Assembly: GCA_020725585.1 (NCBI GenBank)
Contig: DYES01000065.1
Location: 1-64,000 of the forward strand
Length of the DNA stretch: 64,000 nucleotides
Reading direction: 5' to 3'
Source of the DNA: Desulfovirgula sp.
Lineage (GTDB): Bacteria > Bacillota > Desulfotomaculia > Desulfotomaculales > Nap2-2B
Shown here: piece by piece, positions 18,805-20,507 of the stretch
Position numbering within the stretch: position 1 is the stretch's first letter
How the letters are laid out: each line of letters starts with the position of its first letter
Translations under genes and position numbers: made by a program
Notes under the pieces: model-generated
What the model was told of the DNA's origin: nothing
The model's input: only the letters and a program-made list of their open reading frames with translations
Database searches by the model: none

Positions 18805-18962
18805 TCCTGCCCTGCCTCCCGGTTTATTTTATCCTACCGGCTCTTTTTTCTACAAGCCCATCAAAAATAAAATTTACAGAAGGATTACTTTTTTTGATGA
18901 AGAATAAACTCTCTTATAGAATTTATAAATATTTTAAAGAATAAAGAAAGGAGGCAAAATCC

Positions 18963-19760
18963 ATGCTACCAGAAAAGTTGATCCCGCTTTTGGAAGCGCA
19001 AAAATTTTTTCAAACCGGGAGCATTATTGCCATCGGCGGCCAGTCTGTATTTATGAACCCCATGGGATTAATCAAAGAACTAATGAAAAGCGGCTGCAAA
19101 TCTATAAATCTCGTAGCTTCACCGGTGGGCGGCCTGGGTATTGACCTGTTGATCGGCGCCGGGCTGGTCAACTCGGTAGAATTTGCCCAGGTCAGCCTTT
19201 GGGAGTACGGCCTGGCCCCGAATCTGCGGCGCCATGCGGAAAGCGGCCGCTTAAAACTAAAAGAACATGCCTGAACGAGCTTTTTTGCCGGGCTCCAGGC
19301 TGGAGCCATGGGCTTGCCTTTTTTGCCCGTCCGGGGCTTAATCGGCACCGACTACTTGCGCATCCGTCCCGACTTTCAGATCATTAAAAATCCGTACGGG
19401 GAAGATGATCTGGTAGCCATTCCCGCCATCAAGCCAGATCTTTTGCTCATGCACGCATACAAAGCAGATCGCTTTGGCAATGTGCTGACGGACAAGCGAG
19501 AAAGCGATCCCCTGCTGGCCCGCGCATCAGATCGCGCCATAGCAACGGCGGAAGAAATCGTTCCGCACGTAGAACCAGAGGCGGATAAAATAATCATCCC
19601 GGGCATTTATATCGACGCCGTTATTCACCTGCCCGGCGGGGCGAAACCGACGGCCTGCCCGGGGTATTATGAGATCCAGGACGAAGAGATCCGGCGTTAC
19701 CTGCAGGCGGCACAAACGCCGGAAACTTTTCGCCAGTACCTGGAAGAGTTCCTTGCCTGA
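18963..19760 (+). CDS. CoA-transferase-like subunit alpha with in-frame TGA at codon 104 (candidate selenocysteine; alternative: nonsense mutation)
   Basis: Track ORFs 18963-19274 and 19308-19760 are in the same frame and join through TGA 19272-19274: ...GRLKLKEHA[TGA]TSFFAGLQAGAMGLPFLPVRGLIGTD...; homology-like motif AGAMGLPFLPxRxxxGTD; no other lesion. Confidence 0.75.
19272..19313 (+). promoter_or_regulatory. Putative bacterial SECIS-like hairpin following in-frame UGA
   Basis: UGA then 23 nt to apical loop; GGCTCCA(19291-19297)-GGC-TGGAGCC(19301-19307) perfect 7-bp stem, extended by GCC(19287-19289)/GGC(19311-19313). Confidence 0.5.
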
Positions 19761-19775
19761 AAGGGAGGTGATCAC

Positions 19776-20507
19776 ATGTCAGATCTGGCCTACACCCCTG
19801 AAGAATTAATGGCCGTACTGATCAGCCGGGAGGTGCGCGACGGCGAAAGGATCGGCGTGGGCACCCTTTCCCCCGTAGTGGCCGCGGGATGCATTTTGGC
19901 CCACCACACGCACGCGCCTAACGCCAGCCTGGCCATCTGGCGGTTTAAGGAATACTGGCCCTTTACCGAAGGAATGAAAGAGCTGTTTGACCTCGGCCAG
20001 CGCGGCAAGGTGGACCTGTTCTTTTTAAGCGGCGCCCAAATAGATCGTCACGGGAATACCAATCTTGTAGCCATTGGCGATTATAGCCAGCCCAAGGTGA
20101 GATTGCCCGGGGGAGCGGGCTCGGCTACCTTATCTTACACCGTGCCCCGCATAATCTTGTTCCAGGTCAACCACTCGAAACGCACATTTGTGGAAAAAGT
20201 AGATTTTATTACTGCCACCAACAACCCGCCGCCAAACGTATACCGCCGGGGTAAATTTACCAAATGCATTACCCCCCTGGCGATCTTGAATTTTGAGGGG
20301 GAAAACCCTCTTTTGGAAGCGGTCAACCCGGGAGTATCGGTACAACAGGTGGTTGAGAATACGGGCTTCACCCTGGTTATCCCCCCCAACGTAAAGGAGG
20401 CGCCCCCGCCAACCAGCGAAGAATTGCAGGTTTTGCGCACCGTCGTGAAAGAAAAGATACGCGCCGTATATCCGCAATTCAGCGCCACCGCTTTCAAAAA
20501 ACCGTAA
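19776..20507 (+). CDS. CoA-transferase-like subunit beta
   Basis: Follows alpha subunit after 15 nt with RBS; HGNTNLVAIGDYSQPKVRLPGGAGSA motif typical of glutaconate/IpdB-type beta subunits. Confidence 0.85.
   Translation: MSDLAYTPEELMAVLISREVRDGERIGVGTLSPVVAAGCILAHHTHAPNASLAIWRFKEYWPFTEGMKELFDLGQRGKVDLFFLSGAQIDRHGNTNLVAIGDYSQPKVRLPGGAGSATLSYTVPRIILFQVNHSKRTFVEKVDFITATNNPPPNVYRRGKFTKCITPLAILNFEGENPLLEAVNPGVSVQQVVENTGFTLVIPPNVKEAPPPTSEELQVLRTVVKEKIRAVYPQFSATAFKKP

Follow-up and report, generated by a model that had tools for sequence, protein, structure and literature searches.

A conserved in-frame UGA points to selenocysteine in the alpha subunit of a CoA-transferase-superfamily enzyme

The gene for a CoA-transferase-like alpha subunit in Desulfovirgula sp. 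contains a TGA codon in frame, which raises the question of whether this codon is a lesion, a true stop, or a signal for selenocysteine (Sec). In the window (the whole stretch of 64,000 nucleotides that was analyzed), TGA 19272-19274 is the sole lesion in the alpha gene, the beta gene begins after a gap of 15 nt, and both the alpha and the beta subunit match PF01144 (Pfam CoA_trans). A first-pass annotation of the window had proposed that reading through the TGA gives a 265-codon alpha subunit with the beta gene 15 nt further on. The frame, the coordinates, and both genes were reproduced from the sequence, and the hairpin that it placed at 19291-19307 was found as described, with 23 nt separating the UGA from the apical GGC. 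The features of the locus are as follows.

18950-18954, + strand: GGAGG, read from the sequence as the ribosome-binding site of the alpha gene
18963-19760, + strand: alpha subunit gene, PF01144 fold; ATG at 18963, one in-frame UGA, final stop TGA at 19758-19760, 265 codons
19263-19265, + strand: codon for Glu101, the E of the EHxU / EGSU / DHxU motif; Glu, with Asp in some members
19272-19274, + strand: UGA codon, read here as Sec104; aligned to the IpdA position occupied by Glu in 6co6 and by Ala in 6coj
19291-19307, + strand: SECIS-like hairpin GGCTCCA-GGC-TGGAGCC, within the coding sequence
19308-19310, + strand: ATG that opens the mechanically called ORF 3' of the TGA; this Met codon is internal and does not serve as a start, and other members have Tyr, Gln, Ala, or Leu there
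19656-19658, + strand: codon for Cys232, a residue without variation in the 33 Sec/Cys homologs examined; found in GctA and AibA, not in IpdA
19762-19771, + strand: AGGGAGGTGA, read from the sequence as the ribosome-binding site of the beta gene
19776-20507, + strand: beta subunit gene, PF01144; the AibB-Cys / Gct-Glu column holds a hydrophobic residue in most clade members, and the stretch that follows this column is shortened here

One base separates TGA from the Cys codons, and with one genome alone the default reading would be a nonsense mutation (TGC or TGT to TGA) in a gene that is decaying or truncated. Folding of the hairpin in the single genome gave an MFE z of -0.9, and 36 of 200 shuffles folded equally well. 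Because the hairpin alone was no better than shuffled sequence, the UGA question is undecidable from one genome; the single-sequence folding statistics were set aside as uninformative, and synonymous-codon shuffles were used instead.

We searched whole genomes, covering one phylum, using as queries the read-through protein and profiles built from it. The searches revealed 37 species, including that of the window, in which the homolog has exactly one in-frame stop, always TGA and always at the same column. These carriers are G000 (the genome of the window), G001, G013, G019, G093, and G095, plus 14, 9, and 8 from further profile searches, and the identity of their homologs runs from 86% in a same-genus genome down to about 33%, across many families of the phylum. 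Neither TAA nor TAG was found at the Sec column of the 37 TGA homologs, and no second stop was found in any of them. When contigs were scanned with the single sequence, the same-genus relative was the only match, and no relative was found on viral contigs. Cys occupies the Sec column in four species (G039, G234, G405, and G470), and Glu, Asn, or Gln occurs there only in more distant homologs outside the clade. The comparison of homologs at codon 104 that had been suggested for this locus thus returned Sec-TGA or Cys within the clade, and the first-pass remark that relatives can carry EH(A/T)C at this point was borne out by EHAC in G234 and G405.

The codons beyond the UGA are under strong purifying selection: their dN/dS was 0.02 to 0.17 in seven species pairs, the majority of which had a dS close to 1 or higher, and was similar to that of the upstream codons. 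The beta gene is intact 3' of the alpha gene in nearly all TGA carriers. Further decay in related species, which the first-pass annotation had named as a sign that would speak against Sec, was not seen in the TGA homologs. Because the TGA stands at the same column across species and dN/dS downstream of it is low, we excluded decay and assembly error. A pseudogene would have to account for the same TGA in many families at identities down to about 33%, never replaced by TAA or TAG and never joined by a second lesion; we consider this reading very improbable and judge it refuted by the cross-species conservation. The probability of a sequencing or assembly error at 19272-19274 is vanishingly small, as the identical TGA is present in the same-genus genome and in 35 further species, all from independent assemblies.

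Alternatively, the UGA could be a true stop that splits the alpha subunit into fragments of 103 and 150 residues, with a restart at ATG 19308 and a three-subunit enzyme as the product. This ATG is suitably placed in the window's genome, but it has no ribosome-binding site, and the Met is not conserved among the other TGA members. The break would also fall where the chain aligns to the Glu/Ala residue of IpdA, and the Cys and Glu homologs are single chains, all of which makes a split subunit highly improbable.

We compared the hairpin across the TGA genes, all 37 of which form it about 17 to 35 nt 3' of the UGA, with the apex at about 24 to 27 nt. Two registers exist, i+j = 54 (15 species, including the window) and i+j = 52 (22 species), and a covariation count over all members in a single register was therefore misleading and was rejected. 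In the window's register, concerted switches were observed at the pairs 19-35 (CG/GC), 23-31 (CG/GC), and 25-29 (AT/GC), with p values of 0.0004 to 0.0008 from column shuffles, and the pair 20-34 switches between GC and AT, outside the p range of the other pairs. In the other register, the third-codon-position pairs 20-32 and 23-29 covary in 22 of 22 species (p 0.0002, column shuffles), and these changes are synonymous. Since a conserved peptide, (A/G)L(R/Q)AG, dictates part of the stem, a synonymous-codon shuffle was needed. It gave a minimum at +18 to +41 nt after the UGA, with a mean z of -2.05 and negative values in 37 of 37 genes; most other segments along the sampled part of the gene had a z near 0, and the Cys and Glu homologs showed no dip in stability in this shuffle. 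Compensatory changes, some of them synonymous, thus maintain the hairpin in each of the 37 species, and it is significant because of this comparative evidence, namely its presence in every TGA homolog together with the synonymous-codon shuffling. The GCC/GGC lower stem by which the hairpin had been said to extend did not hold up, as it is not conserved across homologs.

Ordinary readthrough, too, can be promoted by a conserved hairpin 3' of a stop codon, and the UGA might then be decoded as Trp or Cys, or under a reassigned code, and not as Sec. Code reassignment was ruled out because the alpha gene and genes of the window terminate at TGA. Against insertion of another residue, Cys, the usual counterpart of Sec, is found in the 4 homologs named above, and selA is present in all genomes of carriers checked. 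It was detected in 24 of 24 tested genomes with the Sec or Cys form, versus 255 of 398 in a sample of the phylum, and in each of the 15 TGA carriers within that 398-genome sample; SelB and tRNA-Sec were present in all 8 genomes tested. The window's genome itself has selB and selA side by side on contig C56, and contig C6 carries a TGA-bearing selD and a tRNA-Sec with the anticodon UCA, so that the check for selA, selB, selC, and selD proposed at the outset found selA, selB, selD, and tRNA-Sec all present. We accordingly regard readthrough with a residue other than Sec as highly improbable.

The same genome contains two members of known selenoprotein families with an in-frame TGA and, behind it, a GGU-apex hairpin: selD (G000:C6:16241-17164, locus L136) and a formate-dehydrogenase-like molybdopterin enzyme (G000:C89:2636-3907, locus L139). 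The apex is GGC in the alpha gene versus GGU/GGUC in these SelD and formate dehydrogenase genes, a difference that speaks against the Sec reading.

Taken together, the conserved UGA, the Cys/Sec exchange, the hairpin, the Sec machinery, and the purifying selection strongly support the original proposal that the UGA encodes Sec. Positions 18963-20507 very probably encode an alpha/beta enzyme of the CoA-transferase superfamily with a selenoprotein as its alpha subunit. The hairpin about 17 to 35 nt behind UGA 19272-19274 would recruit SelB with Sec-tRNA(Sec), and Sec would be inserted at position 104.

To place Sec104 in the enzyme, we aligned the family by profile to solved chains. The Sec column falls on a residue where 6co6 has Glu and 6coj has Ala; both chains are IpdA, and their sequences differ at this residue within the aligned part. 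We take the residue to be the catalytic Glu105 and 6coj to be the E105A variant. IpdAB, the steroid ring-cleaving hydrolase of Rhodococcus/Mycobacterium (6co6, 6co9, 6coj, and 6con), belongs by sequence to the same alpha/beta fold family, and its active-site Glu aligns with the Sec/Cys column of the new family; its beta subunit presumably also lacks the Gct glutamate. The new family differs from IpdAB in having Sec or Cys instead of Glu at the Glu105 column of alpha, in having Cys232, and in its gene neighborhood, and the identity between the two is about 25 to 30%.

Two other enzymes are close to the family. Glutaconate CoA-transferase (GctAB, 1poi) is the best profile match of the alpha subunit and has Cys232 in common with it, but its catalytic Glu is on beta and it has Gln at the Sec column, whereas the beta subunit of the new family has no such Glu. 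The 3-methylglutaconyl-CoA decarboxylase AibA/AibB (5mzw) is the best single-sequence match of both subunits; it has Gly at the Sec column of alpha and its Cys on beta, at a column that is mostly Ile/Leu in the new family. The catalytic Glu or Cys of Gct and AibAB sits on the beta subunit, and AibB has a chalcogen residue, Cys56 of beta, in place of the Gct Glu (PMC7756340).

Among the beta subunits of the Sec family, the AibB-Cys/Gct-Glu column is Ile or Leu in most members, and the window's beta subunit has no Glu there, whereas Glu is retained at the beta column by a second CoA-transferase pair encoded in the same operons. Because Sec stands at the IpdA Glu column, beta lacks the Glu or Cys, and the second pair keeps its Glu, the catalytic residue seems to have moved from the beta to the alpha subunit. 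From an alignment at about 30% identity, we infer an alpha/beta acyl-CoA enzyme in which Sec104 serves as the catalytic residue. In the window's sub-group, the beta subunits (those of the window, G001, G469, and G340) are missing about 20 residues right after the catalytic-residue column (WRFKEYW-PFTEG), which all other aligned members keep. A single-sequence AlphaFold model of the read-through alpha subunit with beta had a pLDDT of 33 and was discarded.

We built a tree of 41 alpha subunits, all homologs from the same phylum. The Sec sequences do not form one clade: they fall into two separated groups, one of them beside Glu-type homologs, with at least four label changes, and the Cys-bearing G039 lies near the TGA-bearing G093 and G095. 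This pattern suggests that Sec was gained or lost repeatedly at one catalytic column. Since not all Sec sequences are joined in the tree, Sec may have had a single origin followed by replacement with Cys and Glu, or it may have arisen twice.

The neighborhood of the gene pair varies between sub-groups. In the main sub-group, an operon-like array of HdrB/HdrA/HdrC-like genes stands before the selenoprotein pair in G093, G095, G147, G329, G281, G209, G471, G411, G506, G541, and G524 (loci L108-L110, L113, L114, L117, L120, L122, and L159-L161), and such arrays often also hold an MFS transporter and another CoA-transferase pair, of the Glu type. The 12 species of the window's sub-group share no common neighbor besides the beta gene and have no Hdr-like genes nearby. 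In only three related genomes, G320 (L116), G431 (L123), and G172 (L125), a gene resembling CoA-disulfide reductase directly follows the selenoprotein pair, where it was possibly retained by conservation of the locus; as read from its sequence, the protein appears to end in a rhodanese-like domain. The gene neighborhoods did not point to a particular reaction.

What Sec104 would do in the enzyme can be considered in two ways. It could serve a redox role, forming a selenenylsulfide with CoA or Cys232 that is coupled to the adjacent HdrABC-like proteins or, in the three genomes, to the CoA-disulfide-reductase-like protein. Such a role would fit the HdrB/HdrA/HdrC-like genes that precede the pair in many main-sub-group members, the invariance of Cys232, and the fact that nearly all known selenoproteins are redox proteins (PMC13188914). 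However, Hdr genes are missing near the pair in the window's own sub-group, Cys232 is also found in the non-redox Gct and AibA, and the known chemistry of the fold is acyl-CoA chemistry; we therefore consider a redox role rather unlikely.

We hypothesize, with some reserve, that acyl-CoA chemistry with a Sec nucleophile and an acyl-selenoenzyme is the most likely mechanism, ahead of redox. By alignment, Sec104 would sit where alpha and beta meet, within the acyl-CoA active site and at the place that Glu105 has in IpdA, and would stand in for the beta-subunit Glu or Cys of Gct and AibB that is absent here. Its selenolate would attack the acyl-CoA substrate, at the thioester or at a beta-keto carbonyl, and the resulting acyl-selenoenzyme would then be hydrolyzed or its acyl group transferred. 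That Sec104 is a non-redox nucleophile in the role of the active-site Glu, with an acyl-selenoester intermediate, is a possibility that we put forward more tentatively still.

Like the bacterial selenoproteins already listed, the family has a UGA codon, a hairpin just 3' of it, Cys homologs, and the Sec machinery in its genomes; unlike them, it has no CxxU/UxxC motif, and its Sec replaces a Glu of related enzymes. An inventory from 2026 lists 119 prokaryotic selenoprotein families and holds no CoA-transferase or PF01144 entry (PMC13188914), and we found no description of a selenocysteine CoA-transferase in the open-access literature. The alpha subunits very probably represent a new selenoprotein family, in a fold previously unlisted as holding Sec.

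In species that carry it, annotation would present the gene as a pseudogene or as two fragments, and what it does in anaerobic acyl-CoA metabolism would be overlooked. The family would place Sec outside the CxxU redox motif, at a position where related enzymes have Glu, and the coexistence of homologous enzymes with Sec, with Cys, and with Glu bears on why selenium is used. If Sec104 is indeed the nucleophile, genetically encoded selenocysteine would be used beyond redox chemistry.
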